Positions 42,710 through 48,407 of a stretch of 64,000 bases of DNA are shown one piece after another; the first letter of the stretch is position 1, and each line of letters starts with the position of its first letter. Made by a program: the position numbers and the translations under genes. Origin of the DNA: Alphaproteobacteria bacterium (GTDB taxonomy: Bacteria > Pseudomonadota > Alphaproteobacteria > JAVJVX01); assembly GCA_040220875.1 (NCBI GenBank), contig JAVJVX010000009.1, forward strand, positions 186,001 to 250,000, given 5' to 3'. The notes beneath the pieces are model-generated. The model was not told the DNA's origin, made no database searches, and saw nothing but the letters and a program-made list of their open reading frames with translations.

Positions 42710-43105
42710 TCAAGATTTCACACGTCTCCATTTATCGAAACTTCTGCCCGCCGTGTAACCCAAATATCCTGAACCGAAAAGCCACCACATCGGCTCCGGT
42801 ATTGCCGCCAGCCACGCCTGAACACCGATCGAGATCTTTCCCGCCGCTTCTGGTGCAAAGACATGGAGAATTCCTACCGGCATGGCCATCAGGATAAACG
42901 CGTAAACAACATAAAGGAATGTCGGGCGCGCCCGGCTCGTCCACGGGTCGGGGGATCTCGCCTCTGCGAGAATTGCTGAAAGCTGCGCCTCAGCATCCTT
43001 AAGACGGCCATCTGCCTTCGCTTCAACAAGTGCTCTCCTGGCCTTTGCCTGCTCGGCAGGGTCTGGCCAAACTCTTTCCAACAAAGCTTCCGCGAACTCG
43101 AATAC
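42710..43105 (-). pseudogene. 3TM holin (GTA_holin_3TM type), missing its start
   Basis: The frame encodes FEFAEALLERVWPDPAEQAK, a helical charged stretch, DPWTSRARPTFLYVVYAFIL, two further hydrophobic segments and WWLFGSGYLGYTAGRSFDKW. This is the phage/GTA 3TM holin, which makes pores for host lysis. No start codon or ribosome site of its own is visible: upstream the frame runs into terminase sequence read in the wrong frame. The N-terminus has probably been lost in a deletion that joined it to the terminase gene. Confidence 0.72.
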
Positions 43106-43679
43106 CCTCGACGGTGAGCCGCTCCGATTTCCATGCGTCGTTGTTTTGCGCCATGGAAAACAGGTCGTGGCCGTGATTGCGGCCCCGTGGAGTAAAGGCG
43201 AAGACGGCCCACCCGTCGTTTTCAGCAAGAATTGGCCGAATGAAATCCCACGCTGCAGGGTCCGCCAAGGCGAATTCCGAGAACACGACGCCGACCGGGT
43301 TCGCCCCCACAAGGCTGTTGTAATTATCCGAGCCGCATACCTGCCAGATAGAGCCACACTTGAGCTCGATTTTCATTTCGGACCCGTTTGTCGCCCGTCG
43401 AATTGATGGCGGGAAGACCTGGTCGATCACCCGTCGTCCAGTGCTGTCAATTGCGTCCCAGACCACCCGGCGCCCCTGCACATTGGTCGGAAGCATATGC
43501 CAGTACGTGCCCACACGACGGTGTGCGGCGACCGCCGTCCAGTTCAGGCAAAGACTCTCCTTCCCTGCGCGGCGATGCCAAAGGGCGACCGCGCGTTTCC
43601 CTCCGCTTTCGAGAAAGTGCCAAACTGGGAGCTGGTAACCTCGCGGCGCCCAGTCGTTTGGAAGGGAAATCTCGAGCAT
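43106..43679 (-). pseudogene. Terminase large subunit, N-terminal ATPase part only
   Basis: About 190 residues of a phage DNA-packaging ATPase: RGYQLPVWHFLESGGKRAVAL, the Walker A-like WHRRAGKESL, the Walker B-like VGVVFSEFAL and the coupling region VFAFTPRGRNHGHDLF. After ERLTVEGI the terminase sequence stops and holin sequence follows in another frame, so the nuclease domain is absent. The ATG at 43679 is preceded not by a ribosome site but by the T-run of a terminator. It is surely non-functional as a motor. Confidence 0.78.
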
Positions 43680-43684
43680 CGGGC

Positions 43685-43711
43685 AAAAAAACGCCCGGTT
43701 TGTACCGGGCG
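43685..43711 (-). terminator. Rho-independent terminator after the small-paralogue array
   Basis: On the minus strand an eight-base stem (CGCCCGGT/ACCGGGCG) with a four-base loop is followed by seven T residues. It lies 32 bases after the last paralogue and ends six bases before the terminase start. This is the strongest terminator in the prophage region. Confidence 0.85.
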
Positions 43712-43742
43712 TTTCCAAAATTCGGGCTGACTGTTTCGCTTT

Positions 43743-43946
43743 TCAGGCCGCAGGCTCGTAGACCCCGTCGGCATATCCGACCGTTCTGTCTTTCCCTTTC
43801 AGACCATCCGCCACGATGTAAATCTTTTCCGCCTCGAAATCATCGGGCAGTAACATCAAAAGATTCACATTGTTCTGCGCGATGCATACCCAGCTTCGTG
43901 GGCTCCCCGAGTGGGGATCCGAACCATTCACCACAAAAAGCTTCAT
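43743..43946 (-). CDS. Prophage small protein, MKLFxVNG paralogue 1
   Basis: A 67-residue protein of unknown function, starting MKLFVVNGSD, with SWVCIAQN, LLPDDFEAEKI and VADGLKGKDRTVGYADG. It shares the same plan as three other genes in this array: an N-terminal MK-hydrophobic-F-x-hydrophobic-NG strand, a Ser-Trp-hydrophobic strand ending in Ala, a Leu/Pro/acidic middle and a V-x-DG-x-x-G turn. It is closest to paralogue 2. GGGGAG precedes the ATG by five bases. No signal peptide, membrane segment or cysteine pair. Confidence 0.7.
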   Translation of the reverse strand: MKLFVVNGSDPHSGSPRSWVCIAQNNVNLLMLLPDDFEAEKIYIVADGLKGKDRTVGYADGVYEPAA

Positions 43947-44055
43947 TCTCACTCCCCTTCGACATTGCCGCGTTTAGGCGCTGACCCGTGGCGGAGGTCT
44001 TACCACGCCCAATTCGCGGGCTCAACCAACCCAGGCTCTGTCGAGAGGCCGGACC

Positions 44056-44331
44056 TCAGACGCCGCTGGTGGACTGCGCGGGGATCGGCGGGTTAGACGC
44101 TGGCATGCCGTGGAGCATCGCCGCCGCCTCGGTGACCGTTGCCCAGGATCCGCACGAGCCGAGCCGACGGTCCCGACCGACAAAGCCATCGGCTACCCGA
44201 ATGATCTCTTCCGTTTCAAAATCATCCGGTAGCATCAGGTTAAGATTCGTTGGGTTCTGCGCGATGACCATCCAGCACTTGCGGACACCACCCTTGGACA
44301 GGTCTTCACCGTTCACGATGAAAAGTTTCAT
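44056..44331 (-). CDS. Prophage small protein, MKLFxVNG paralogue 2
   Basis: A 91-residue paralogue starting MKLFIVNGEDL, with CWMVIAQN, LMLPDDFETEEI and VADGFVGRDRRLG. The first 56 residues align well with paralogue 1 (IAQN, LPDDFE, VADG and G-DR shared). It differs by a C-terminal extension of about 30 residues (AAMLHGMPASNPPIPAQS). GGAGGG lies eight bases before the ATG. Function unknown. Confidence 0.7.
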   Translation of the reverse strand: MKLFIVNGEDLSKGGVRKCWMVIAQNPTNLNLMLPDDFETEEIIRVADGFVGRDRRLGSCGSWATVTEAAAMLHGMPASNPPIPAQSTSGV

Positions 44332-44370
44332 AGGATGTCCCTCCAATAACTCTTTAGGCGCCACGCTGTT

Positions 44371-44574
44371 TCAAGCGGCCCGTTCGGTCAGTTCCTGAAT
44401 GTCCGGCACGAACGGCGCGTTCATCTCCGCCACGATACCCGCGTCACCCTTGACGTTATCGAGAACCTCAAAGACTTTTTCCGCTCTCGCCGCCGCCAAG
44501 GATTTCGCGGCGGCTTCCGTCTCGGCGATGATCAGCCAGGACCGGCTTTCGCCATTCACTGCAAATAATTTCAT
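44371..44574 (-). CDS. Prophage small protein, MKLFxVNG paralogue 3
   Basis: A 67-residue paralogue starting MKLFAVNGES, then RSWLIIAETEAAAKSLAAA and VFEVLDNVKGDAG. The loop between the NG and the SW is shorter than in paralogues 1 and 2, and the LPDDFE stretch is replaced by an alanine-rich helix-like segment. It resembles paralogue 4 more. GGGGAG lies six bases before the ATG. The start is taken at MKLF, not at longer in-frame positions, because of that site and the family pattern. Confidence 0.66.
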   Translation of the reverse strand: MKLFAVNGESRSWLIIAETEAAAKSLAAARAEKVFEVLDNVKGDAGIVAEMNAPFVPDIQELTERAA

Positions 44575-44861
44575 CGTCTTCTCCCCTCGGTTGCGGTTGG
44601 TCCCCTGCTGCCCCAAATCTGCGATCGGTGTCCGCTTTCAACGGGGCGTGAGGGTCGGGTCCCAAATACCCGAGAATTCCACTTAGATATTTCCACAACG
44701 TTGATAGGGTTATTATGTGGCCCCGCGCGCCGGATCGCCAGACTTTTCACGAAGCTGCGACAGATTGCCCAACTGACATGCGGCTGGCACGCAGAACGTG
44801 CACGCGTGGCAAAGGCGCCTCCCCGCAGGAAAGCGCCTTTCTTACAGTCTTTCGCTGATGA

Positions 44862-45050
44862 TCAGTTTTTCGTTTGCACGAGTGGCCCCGAACCGGAGGC
44901 GATCACCTTCGCCTCACCCTCAAAGCCATCCACGAGTTCGATTACCTCGTCAGGCGCCGCATCCGGGGGCAAGAGAGCCCTTGCCGCCGCCGCGTCCTCG
45001 GCCGTGACAAGCCAGCTTCCTGTCGATCCGTTCAAGGAAAATATCTTCAT
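44862..45050 (-). CDS. Prophage small protein, MKIFxLNG paralogue 4
   Basis: A 62-residue paralogue starting MKIFSLNGSTG, then SWLVTAEDAAAARALLPPD and VIELVDGFEGEAKVI. It keeps the complete family plan with the shortest first loop. A G-rich ribosome site (GGGGGGCGG) lies directly before the ATG. It is the first of the four in transcription order, after the terminase small subunit. The 287 bases between it and paralogue 3 hold no gene I can support. Confidence 0.66.
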   Translation of the reverse strand: MKIFSLNGSTGSWLVTAEDAAAARALLPPDAAPDEVIELVDGFEGEAKVIASGSGPLVQTKN

Positions 45051-45149
45051 TCCGCCCCCCAAGCGATGCCTGTTCCAAAACGACAGAGAGAGTAGAGCAG
45101 CCGATGTAATTTTTCGAGGGGCCTTGTCGCGGAACCCCTACTCGACCCC

Positions 45150-45587
45150 CTACTCCGCCGGTATTGCATTTTCGGGCACCCGCTCGCCGCCAAACTGGAC
45201 GATCCGTATTGTTGGGACCTCTTCATTACCGGAGACACGCTCCCGGAATTTTGCGGGACGGTACGCCCGAAGCAGAAACATGAGGAGCTGGTCAGAATAT
45301 TCCCGGACTACGCCGATCTGCTTCCCCTGGTAAAAAACCGGCTTGTCCCACCCTTCGAGGGCACGCCGTCGTGCCTCGGATTCGAGTAAATCAAGCGCTT
45401 CTTCGAGAGCCGCCCGCCAGGCCGCCCTGAATGCCGGACTTTTCTCCCGGGCCCGATATGCCTGAGCACGGGAAATTCCGGCCTCGGCGGCGGCGACACT
45501 GACCACGCCTCTTTCCCGCAGGGCCTCGAGAAAAGCTCCCCGGCGGGCCCGGTCAAACTTCCGGGGTGCCAGAACCTGGTTCGTCAT
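45150..45587 (-). CDS. Phage terminase small subunit
   Basis: A 145-residue protein with an N-terminal helix-turn-helix (FLEALRERGVVSVAAAEAGISRAQAYRARE) and the stretch SPAFRAAWRAALEEALDLLE, EARRRALEGWDKPVFYQGK, DQLLMFLLRAYRPAKF. This is the pattern of phage small terminases, which recognise the packaging site on phage DNA. It is separated from its large-subunit partner by the four small paralogues, an unusual spacing. Confidence 0.82.
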   Translation of the reverse strand: MTNQVLAPRKFDRARRGAFLEALRERGVVSVAAAEAGISRAQAYRAREKSPAFRAAWRAALEEALDLLESEARRRALEGWDKPVFYQGKQIGVVREYSDQLLMFLLRAYRPAKFRERVSGNEEVPTIRIVQFGGERVPENAIPAE

Positions 45588-45617
45588 GATTCTCTGCTCT
45601 TTGGTTCCGAATCAAAA

Positions 45618-45640
45618 AGGGCCGGCTGGTGGCCGGCCCT
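45618..45640 (-). terminator. Rho-independent terminator after the DUF6362 gene
   Basis: A nine-base stem (AGGGCCGGC/GCCGGCCCT) with a five-base loop, followed on the minus strand by TTTTGATT. It separates DUF6362 from the terminase small subunit. A lone repressor-type half-site TGTACGTA sits nearby at 45666-45673. Confidence 0.72.
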
Positions 45641-45681
45641 GCTTTGTATGTCTTCAGCGTATGACTGTACGTATATAACAT

Positions 45682-46176
45682 TCACGACATCTGCGACAAG
45701 CGTTTTTTTGACCTTCCCGGAAAAAAATCTTTCCCTCTGGCGCCAGCCGGCCCGGCTGCTTGATCGAGTTCGCGCCGGATCTCGGTGATTGCCGTCCTGA
45801 ACCGCCGCTGCAGTGTCCGGCTGCTCCGACGAAATACGTATTCCAGGTCCCGCCACGCGATCCCCGAGCACCGCAACCAGACGAGCTCGCCCTCCCGCTT
45901 CTCCAGCCATAAAAGCCAAAGGATTGCCTCGTCCATCCGATCGATCTGGTCCGCATTGGGGGGGATTCGTGCGGCCGTCGGCGTGCCATACCCGTATGCT
46001 TCTCCGGCAACGTGGATAACTGCCGGCCAGGAACTCCATTTTCCCTTCAGGTATAGAAGCTCTTTTGGCCTGGGCAGGCGCTTCAGAAAGTCAGCGGCCT
46101 CTTCCAGGCGCCGGATGATTTCCGCGTGGCGGGCCTCTCCTGCAGGTGGGTCCCGGTCGGAATCAGTCCCTGCCAT
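45682..46176 (-). CDS. DUF6362 family phage protein
   Basis: A 164-residue protein of the DUF6362 type: a helical N-terminal half (EIIRRLEEAADFLKRLP), KWSSWPAVIH, then a region resembling a sigma-type helix-turn-helix (MDEAILWLLWLEKREGELVW, GIAWRDLEYVF, SSRTLQRRFRTAI). Probably DNA-binding; common in phages of alphaproteobacteria next to replication or packaging genes. GGAG lies six bases before the ATG at 46176; another in-frame ATG is at 46188. Confidence 0.76.
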   Translation of the reverse strand: MAGTDSDRDPPAGEARHAEIIRRLEEAADFLKRLPRPKELLYLKGKWSSWPAVIHVAGEAYGYGTPTAARIPPNADQIDRMDEAILWLLWLEKREGELVWLRCSGIAWRDLEYVFRRSSRTLQRRFRTAITEIRRELDQAAGPAGARGKDFFPGRSKKRLSQMS

Positions 46177-46363
46177 GTCGTTCTCCATACAGTTTTTCGC
46201 CGATCTGGCGGATTAGCTCTTTCTCGGGCCAGGTGAGGCGATCATCGTCGAGCCTGACCACCAGGACCCCCCCACGCCAGCCATTCTGCAGACGGGCGAA
46301 TGTCCGCCGGGCATCGTCAGCATTACGGCCGGATGCCACCACGCTGGAGAGGCTTGATTTCAT
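46163..46363 (-). CDS. Small phage protein, unknown
   Basis: A 66-residue protein without a known family. It ends RLTWPEKELIRQIGEKLYG, a motif I associate with short phage proteins upstream of DUF6362. Its 3' end overlaps the DUF6362 start by 14 bases, which supports it as a real gene of the same operon. Ribosome site is weak. Confidence 0.5.
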   Translation of the reverse strand: MKSSLSSVVASGRNADDARRTFARLQNGWRGGVLVVRLDDDRLTWPEKELIRQIGEKLYGERHGRD

Positions 46364-46402
46364 GAAGGAATTGAATCCCCTATCGGTTCTTGCGCCATTG
46401 CT

Positions 46403-46618
46403 TCACCCTGTTTCCTCAGGCAAACGCTCGAAAACGCGGATCCATTTTGTGAAATGGCGATAGGTTGGATTTCCAGGGCCGGCACCACCGGCAACATCGG
46501 GATATAATGCCGCGGCCGCACGGTAGGCACGCCAGCGCTCAGGCTCCTGCGCCCTCAGGGCGGCGTGAAAATTGACGATGTTTTCTGGAAACGGTCTACT
46601 GGGAGGGGGCTTGATCAT
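46403..46618 (-). CDS. Small phage protein, unknown (first leftward gene)
   Basis: A 71-residue protein starting MIKPPPSRPFPENIVNFHAA with ERWRAYRAAAALYP and NPTYRHFTKWIRVFERLP. No family recognised. It has a good AGGTGA site and lies directly downstream of the leftward repressor-controlled promoter (46676-46704), so it is probably the first early gene of that transcript. Confidence 0.55.
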   Translation of the reverse strand: MIKPPPSRPFPENIVNFHAALRAQEPERWRAYRAAAALYPDVAGGAGPGNPTYRHFTKWIRVFERLPEETG

Positions 46619-46704: not shown

Positions 46705-46768
46705 GGGGAATGTCGCAAAAAACCGTGTCGACGGGCCCGAAAAAGAAATCTGAAAGGAGGAGGTGACC

Positions 46769-47452
46769 ATGACCGACACCTCACAGGCAGCATCTCGCCT
46801 GAAGGCCCTGCGGCAAAAGGCCGGTCTATCGCTGCGGGAAATGGCGCGCGAGATCGGTTGGGGGGCGACCCGCTATCAGCATTACGAGGACCGATACAAG
46901 AAACCGTATCTGCCGATCGAGGTGTTGGACGCAATTTTGCCCGTCCTGGCCCGCCACGGCGTTCCGCATCGGGATCTCGAAAAGCTCACCCCCGCTATGC
47001 CGGGAAACATGCGTGAAAAGCAAAAGGCAGAATCCGATGATCTCGTTTTCGTGCCTGTTTACGACGTCGCGGCCGCCGCCGGCGATGGCACCATGGTGGA
47101 CGCCGAACACCAGACTGGTCGCCTTGCCTTTCTCCCGGAATGGCTGAAAAGCGTCACTACCGCGGCCCCCGCCAGCCTGGGGGTCATCATGGTCCGGGGC
47201 GACAGCATGTTCCCCACGCTCGTCGACGGGGATCACATCCTCATTGATTTCACTCAGACAGTGCCCAGACAGGACGGTATTTTCGTCATCCGGCTCAATG
47301 ACGTGCTCCAGGTTAAGCGCGTGACCCTGCACCCGGGGACTGGGCGTCTTACGATCTCATCCGACAATCCTGCCTATTCGGCCTATCCGGACCTGGCGCC
47401 CGAGTCCATCCATGTCGCAGGGAAAGTGATCTGGCTGGGACGCCGGGTCTGA
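46769..47452 (+). CDS. S24-family phage repressor (cI/LexA-like)
   Basis: A 227-residue two-domain repressor. Residues 8-45 form an XRE-type helix-turn-helix (ASRLKALRQKAGLSLREMAREIG). The C-terminal half is the S24 peptidase domain with the catalytic serine in VRGDSMFPTL (Ser146) and lysine in VLQVKRVT (Lys183). Such proteins hold a prophage silent and often self-cleave upon RecA activation; no clear Ala-Gly cleavage site stands out here (AAAAGDG near 104 is a candidate). The ATG at 46769 has a perfect AGGAGGTGA site. Two matching operators lie at 46668-46696 and 47939-47957. Confidence 0.9.
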   Translation: MTDTSQAASRLKALRQKAGLSLREMAREIGWGATRYQHYEDRYKKPYLPIEVLDAILPVLARHGVPHRDLEKLTPAMPGNMREKQKAESDDLVFVPVYDVAAAAGDGTMVDAEHQTGRLAFLPEWLKSVTTAAPASLGVIMVRGDSMFPTLVDGDHILIDFTQTVPRQDGIFVIRLNDVLQVKRVTLHPGTGRLTISSDNPAYSAYPDLAPESIHVAGKVIWLGRRV

Positions 47453-47503: not shown

Positions 47504-47752
47504 TCACCCGACCAGGCCAAGAGCACTCTTGTAGAGATCCAGCAGGGCCTCGCGCTCGGCACGATCGGCGCTATCGAGCTTTCGAAGCTTCACCACCTGC
47601 CGCAAAGTGGGCACATCGAAACCGTTCGCTTTCGCCTCGGAATAGACTTCGCGAATATGCCCCGCAATCTCGGCCCTCTCTTCTTCGAGGCGCTCAATCC
47701 GTTCCACATACCGCCGTAAATGTTCGCCGGCCACTCCTGCTGCTTCTGCCAT
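47504..47752 (-). CDS. GapR family (DUF2312) DNA-binding protein
   Basis: An 82-residue GapR/DUF2312 protein: LRRYVERIERLEEERAEI, REVYSEAKANGFDVPTLRQVV, LRKLDSADRAEREALLDLY. In Caulobacter, GapR binds overtwisted AT-rich DNA and helps topoisomerases. Phage-encoded versions exist. This copy lies inside the prophage remnant, between the repressor and the 47999 gene, on the opposite strand. GAGGAAG lies well before the ATG. Confidence 0.86.
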   Translation of the reverse strand: MAEAAGVAGEHLRRYVERIERLEEERAEIAGHIREVYSEAKANGFDVPTLRQVVKLRKLDSADRAEREALLDLYKSALGLVG

Positions 47753-47998: not shown

Positions 47999-48352
47999 AT
48001 GGCTTTGGAATTGTCATCCCTCAGGGCTCTCGGCGGCGGTGGCGGCTTCTGGCTCTGGCATTATCGGACGCCCGACGGCCCTGACCGCCTGCTCGGCCCG
48101 GATTATTTTCGCGGCCATGATGGTGTTCTGCGCGCAGGGCATATGATACTCGCGGCCTGCAACCTGAACGCAAGCCCCATGGGCCTCGTACTTTTTGTAT
48201 CGGCCGCAGACGGCGAAAAGGCTGAGATTACCTTGCTTTCGCGGGAACCGCTGGAGGGGACCGTCGTTGTGGAGACTCCGATCACTGGCCCACGTGGCAG
48301 CAGAACCGGCCAAACCAGAGACGGCGGAATTGGTCGGAGCGGCGGGATTTGA
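47999..48352 (+). CDS. Phage virion-associated-type protein, C-terminus replaced at tRNA-Pro
   Basis: A 117-residue protein containing FWLWHYRTPDGPDRLLG, a pattern frequent in short phage structural or tail-region proteins that begin with 'WHYRT.D' and continue with a 'LR.GHMI' stretch. The start follows AAGGAG. The final ~25 residues (PRGSRTGQTRDGGIGRSGG) are compositionally odd, and the last seven codons are the antisense of the tRNA-Pro gene. This suggests that the original 3' end was lost or exchanged at the integration site. Function unknown. Confidence 0.62.
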   Translation: MALELSSLRALGGGGGFWLWHYRTPDGPDRLLGPDYFRGHDGVLRAGHMILAACNLNASPMGLVLFVSAADGEKAEITLLSREPLEGTVVVETPITGPRGSRTGQTRDGGIGRSGGI

Positions 48353-48407
48353 ACCCACGACCCCCACACCCCCAGTGTGATGCGCTACCAGACTGCGCTA
48401 CGCTCCG
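48331..48407 (-). tRNA. tRNA-Pro (anticodon GGG)
   Basis: The minus strand gives a complete 77-base tRNA with encoded CCA: acceptor CGGAGCG/CGCTCCG, D arm GCGCAGTCTGGTAGCGC, anticodon stem TCACA/TGTGG around CTGGGGG (anticodon GGG), T arm GTGGGTTCAAATCCCGC. The prophage remnant begins at its 3' end, the usual side for phage integration into a tRNA. Confidence 0.94.

Follow-up and report, generated by a model that had tools for sequence, protein, structure and literature searches.

The 64-kb stretch of DNA analysed here (hereafter the window) carries on its minus strand four small paralogous genes that are situated between the two terminase genes of a decayed prophage. Judged by its gene order and spacing, this array is built like a moron-type accessory insertion in the remnant of a prophage. 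The explanation that we favour, tentatively and with a probability of roughly 0.45, is that it forms a moron-type cassette, cargo of a siphovirus-like prophage, and encodes small acidic binding proteins. What is new here is an orphan family that is present as a four-copy array; orphan accessory genes in prophages are already well known.

Four paralogs of one family

The array consists of gene 1 (43743..43946, 67 aa, beginning MKLFVVNG), gene 2 (44056..44331, 91 aa), gene 3 (44371..44574, 67 aa) and gene 4 (44862..45050, 62 aa), all on the minus strand. All four reading frames are intact and start with ATG, and a purine-rich ribosome site is present 5' of each of them (AGGGGAGTGAGA-ATG, GGAGGGACATCCT-ATG, GAGGGGAGAAGACG-ATG and GGGGGGCGGA-ATG). 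An earlier description of this DNA (the sequence-only reading) had placed the four open reading frames at 43743-45050 on the minus strand with lengths of 67, 91, 67 and 62 aa and had given each gene its own ribosome site, and it was correct in all of these details. The encoded proteins are all acidic, with pI values of 4.2-5.2, and the gene 4 protein is the most acidic of the four (net charge -5.5).

Alignment of the four proteins gives nine invariant columns, M1 K2 F4 N7 G8 W19 A23 D47 G51 in gene-1 numbering. Pairwise BLOSUM62 local alignments, scored against 2000 shuffles, gave Z = 33 for genes 1 and 2, Z = 19 for genes 3 and 4, and Z = 6.8-13.5 for the alignments across the two pairs. Because such scores were obtained for all six pairs, both the family and its division into pair A (genes 1 and 2) and pair B (genes 3 and 4) are well beyond chance, and the single family in two pairs proposed by the sequence-only reading is thereby upheld. 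Within pair A, gene 2 is 55% identical to gene 1 and has in addition a C-terminal extension of ~30 aa, and the two genes have in common a 73-nt direct repeat with 71% identity; in pair B, gene 3 has a short loop and an Ala-rich middle. In single-sequence searches with gene 1, the match to gene 2 has a value of 1.6e-15, and those to genes 3 and 4 are weak (0.08 and 0.02, respectively). A profile (HMM) of the four sequences matched exactly the four array genes in the 2.54 Mb genome, with E values of ~1e-28 to 1e-30; since it was built from these same genes, this result shows only the absence of a fifth copy. The 287-nt and 110-nt intergenic gaps of the array were also searched for a decayed fifth copy, and none was found. 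Finally, codon-usage log-odds, with twelve long ORFs of the window as the training set, are more favourable for the frame of each of the four genes than for any of its five alternatives, and chance ORFs are ruled out by these values and by the shuffle scores.

The divergence of the copies was estimated by the NG86 method. Genes 1 and 2 have dN 0.46 and dS 2.37, and genes 3 and 4 have dN 0.58 with a dS that could not be computed; for genes 2 and 3 the values are dN 0.81 vs dS 1.01, although cross-pair estimates of this kind are noisy. With dS near saturation and dN at 0.46-0.58 within pairs, the duplications appear to be old and the paralogs to have been kept under constraint, so that by these estimates amino-acid change within pairs is held back relative to silent change. 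The sequence-only reading had suggested selection for diversity among the copies. The divergence values do not bear this out: a dN well below the saturated dS argues against diversifying selection as a recent force, and we reject it as a present claim. The duplications are probably older than the decay of the prophage, and such constrained divergence of the paralogs argues that the array genes were functional for most of their history. Since the prophage decayed by deletion and its surviving genes look intact, the intactness of the array is weak evidence of present selection.

The prophage remnant and the insertion between its terminase genes

The remnant extends from ~42.7 to 48.3 kb and is bounded by a cutA-like gene, recognised by eye, and a tRNA-Pro gene (48331-48407), which is the sole structured RNA found in the region. 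In a search for an att duplication, no repeat was found that pairs this tRNA gene with the left end of the remnant. From right to left the order is a GapR-like gene, a CI-like repressor gene, small unknown ORFs, a DUF6362 gene, the terminase small subunit gene (TerS), the array, a truncated terminase large subunit gene (TerL) and a holin ORF. The match of the GapR-like (UPF0335/DUF2312) gene (47504-47752) exceeds the cut-off of PRK13694 but falls short of that of the GapR equivalog model, and the CI-like repressor (46763..47452, plus strand), which has HTH and Peptidase S24 domains, matches phrog_4 (E 3e-36) and PF00717. The remaining genes are on the minus strand. The DUF6362 gene (45682..46188; PF19889, E 9.5e-24) is located upstream of TerS, which is intact (45150..45587, 145 aa; phrog_4044, E 9.7e-39). 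TerL is represented by its N-terminal part only (43023..43679; phrog_2, E 1.3e-10), with up to 59% identity across residues 14-207 in tblastn searches. The holin-domain ORF (42710..43357) matches GTA_holin_3TM PF11351 over residues 85-206 (E 6.8e-24) and the phrog_3427 holin. These TerS, truncated TerL, holin and repressor matches agree with the earlier placement of the array in a decayed prophage, amid both terminase genes. TerL homology stops near 43100, and the holin domain begins there in another frame; this out-of-frame junction indicates that the structural genes and the remainder of TerL were lost in an internal deletion.

The point of insertion can be recognised from the four relatives that have both genes, in every one of which TerS and TerL abut or overlap. 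The TerS-TerL spacing is +1470 bp here, and -119 (L035), -26 (L065), -8 (L155) and +57 bp (L146) in the four related loci where this prophage's own proteins recognised both subunits; in Achromobacter phage JWT the TerS relative is overlapped by its TerL. A gap of 1.47 kb vs one of at most 57 bp in 4/4 relatives supports the accessory-insertion character that had been read from this region, but the accompanying statement that phages often use the terminase gap for cargo does not hold among the closest relatives (0/4 with both subunits recognised). One short ORF is present at the TerS-TerL site in a few more distant relatives (L070 and L071). A base composition unlike that of the surrounding phage genes is a frequent, not universal, feature of morons; the GC content of the array is 0.56-0.60, the same as that of its flanks.

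The array is followed by a strong intrinsic terminator (43685..43711, minus strand), which lies after gene 1 and before TerL and consists of a stem at 43692-43711 and then 7 T; the RNA fold over 43680-43725 has an energy of -21 kcal/mol and a z of -3.7. The automated terminator scan missed this site, probably through a stem rule that runs into the T-run. A second strong intrinsic terminator (45619..45639, minus strand) is located directly upstream of TerS and parts it from the DUF6362 gene, and TerS and the array form one unit that is bounded by strong terminators. Strong terminator-like hairpins are found at five distinct sites in the 64 kb, those before TerS and before TerL included. Gene 4 is followed by a 13-bp hairpin that has A- and T-tracts (44811..44840, minus strand; z -1.8), a possible further terminator. 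The TerL start is 5 nt past the T-run of the terminator and has no Shine-Dalgarno sequence; a terminator followed by a TerL gene that lacks a ribosome site argues that the insert uncouples TerL from TerS. A scan of 43000-46500 for sigma-70-like sites found no promoter of this type.

The concept of morons, accessory loci of prophages, has been discussed elsewhere (PMC7067206). Like morons, the array is inserted between genes that are adjacent in relatives, has a terminator, encodes orphan proteins and lies outside the core gene set of its relatives. Unlike morons, it holds four paralogs in place of one or a few unrelated genes, it has no detected sigma-70 promoter, and its GC content is not distinct.

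A separate observation concerns TerL itself. In several alphaproteobacterial MAGs, from rumen and other sources (L147-L151), there is a TerL that is 67-70% identical to that of the remnant; it adjoins genes that do not look like phage genes and has no recognisable TerS upstream. It may be a prophage remnant that has been conserved, or a packaging gene that has become domesticated.

Searches for relatives and the predicted fold

No array protein was matched by profiles of Pfam, PHROGs or NCBIfam, and the PADLOC models gave no match for any of the four, in agreement with the unrecognised family of the sequence-only reading. A profile search of PDB sequences returned a chance match to Rubisco only. 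Searches of 50,697 phage records, of plasmids (by tblastn with genes 2 and 4) and, by pattern scan, of 85,000 species genomes brought up no relative. When IMG/VR was scanned for patterns from all four proteins and from two alignments (the gene 1+2 pair included), there was no credible match; the candidates L010 and L061 proved to be short coincidences in unrelated sequence of an AT-rich phage. Profile searches of ~1,000 genomes, mostly Alphaproteobacteria, gave chance-level matches only, as did those of 50 records of related phages and host genomes. We also rejected the weak genome matches, which were found in 24 of 385 genomes at E <= 0.05 where ~19 are expected by chance and which were partial and mostly inside long unrelated frames, and the match L012 (6.6e-4), which lies inside a 385-aa frame and spans positions 25-55 only. 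The genomes searched include no second member of the same order. Since pattern scans require near-exact peptides and the profile scans covered a sample of genomes, distant relatives may exist; within reach of the searches made, the array proteins are, by sequence, an orphan family.

The AlphaFold2 model of the gene 1 protein (pLDDT 86) has strands at residues 2-9 and 16-23, a helix at 26-32, and strands at 38-47 and 54-59. That of the gene 4 protein (pLDDT 90, with one of five models confident) has the same beta-beta-alpha-beta-beta fold; both models use the same four-sequence alignment with a different lead sequence. Agreement of predicted folds had been proposed as a check on the family, and the agreement of these two models supports one common fold for it. 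Foldseek returned many small uncharacterised phage proteins of similar shape, none of them significant (best E 0.13, viral), and its best E against the PDB, 2.4, was also non-significant. Similar predicted folds include those of A0A6G8R6G9 of Synechococcus phage S-H34 (TM 0.84 by target length, 32% identity over 41 columns) and A0A514TVF6 of Aeromonas phage D3 (TM 0.69/0.65); at E 0.14-0.36, common descent of these two with the array is not shown, and we know of no array of either.

Possible functions of the array proteins

On the explanation that we favour, an accessory cassette would have become inserted between TerS and TerL of a siphovirus-like prophage, bringing with it four paralogs, old and kept under constraint, of a single small acidic beta-beta-alpha-beta-beta protein. 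The array proteins appear too small to hold an enzyme active site and would be small binding proteins. Their size, their fold and precedent suggest that each may bind either a host protein or one from an incoming phage, altering its activity, and that the loops joining strands 1 and 2, which are specific to each pair, and the differing C-terminal tails may confer different partners or affinities. The precedent comes from other small phage proteins, since T7 Gp2 acts on RNA polymerase and phi29 p56 on uracil glycosylase. The small alpha/beta protein Orf55 of phage lambda is reported to resemble phi29 p56, RNA polymerase epsilon and T7 Gp2 (PMC8614690). This illustrates in what way folds this small can inhibit host enzymes; membership of the array in those families is not implied, and its own weak fold resemblance to epsilon is a lead only.

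A closer analogy, in which the proteins would bind host RNA polymerase in the manner of epsilon or Gp2 and alter transcription, seems to us very unlikely. The array proteins are like RNA polymerase epsilon (YkzG, 4njc) and T7 Gp2 in size and in having, by prediction, a small strand/helix fold of related order, lambda Orf55 has itself been modelled as Gp2/epsilon-like (PMC8614690), and 4njc, at Foldseek rank 2 (probability 0.51, TM 0.55/0.69), is the sole coherent, like-sized match among solved structures. However, the E of 2.6 for this match is non-significant, the strand order is generic, and the array proteins differ from both in having an extra fourth strand and no sequence match. In T7 Gp2 a basic pair near strand 3 matters and contacts RNA polymerase (PMC8614690); strand 3 of genes 1-4 reads EKIYIVADG, EEIIRVADG, EKVFEVLDN and DEVIELVDG, with the basic pair in 0/4 copies and a single Arg, in gene 2, so these key residues are missing. 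The location of the array suggests another role, since it lies inside the packaging module and shares a terminator-bounded unit with TerS; its products could assist TerS and TerL in packaging, for instance in terminase regulation or DNA marking, as a lineage-specific elaboration of that module. We consider this unlikely, given that the array is missing from all four relatives with both subunits and from the other related loci scanned, and that the strong terminator and the lack of a TerL ribosome site uncouple TerL from it.

Several diverged copies of a small acidic orphan protein, encoded at an accessory site, might also be expected of a dedicated anti-defence or superinfection-exclusion cluster, each copy of which would inhibit its own variant of an immune protein of the host or of a phage, and many characterised morons do affect phage immunity (PMC7067206). 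Such a cluster is nonetheless a rather doubtful explanation: there was no PADLOC match, the dN values well below saturated dS give no sign of diversifying selection, and, unlike anti-CRISPR loci, the array contains no HTH (aca-like) gene, its neighbours being TerS, DUF6362 and TerL. At the other extreme, the genes could be junk, duplicates without function that were left behind in a dead prophage. The phage has indeed lost what lay between TerL and the holin, and no integrase was noticed among the ORFs of the remnant, but four intact frames with ribosome sites and coding-type codon usage, together with the constrained divergence of the paralogs, make this highly improbable.

A further explanation, in which a new family of small phage proteins neutralises a varying host or phage target and the diverged copies each cover one variant of it, strikes us as quite unlikely. 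Should the array prove to act on a protein of the host or of a rival phage, it would be a new fold-level type among phage accessory genes; otherwise it is another set of orphan cargo genes, of a common sort. With four diverged copies in one place, the sequence variation for finding a binding surface is already present in the array.
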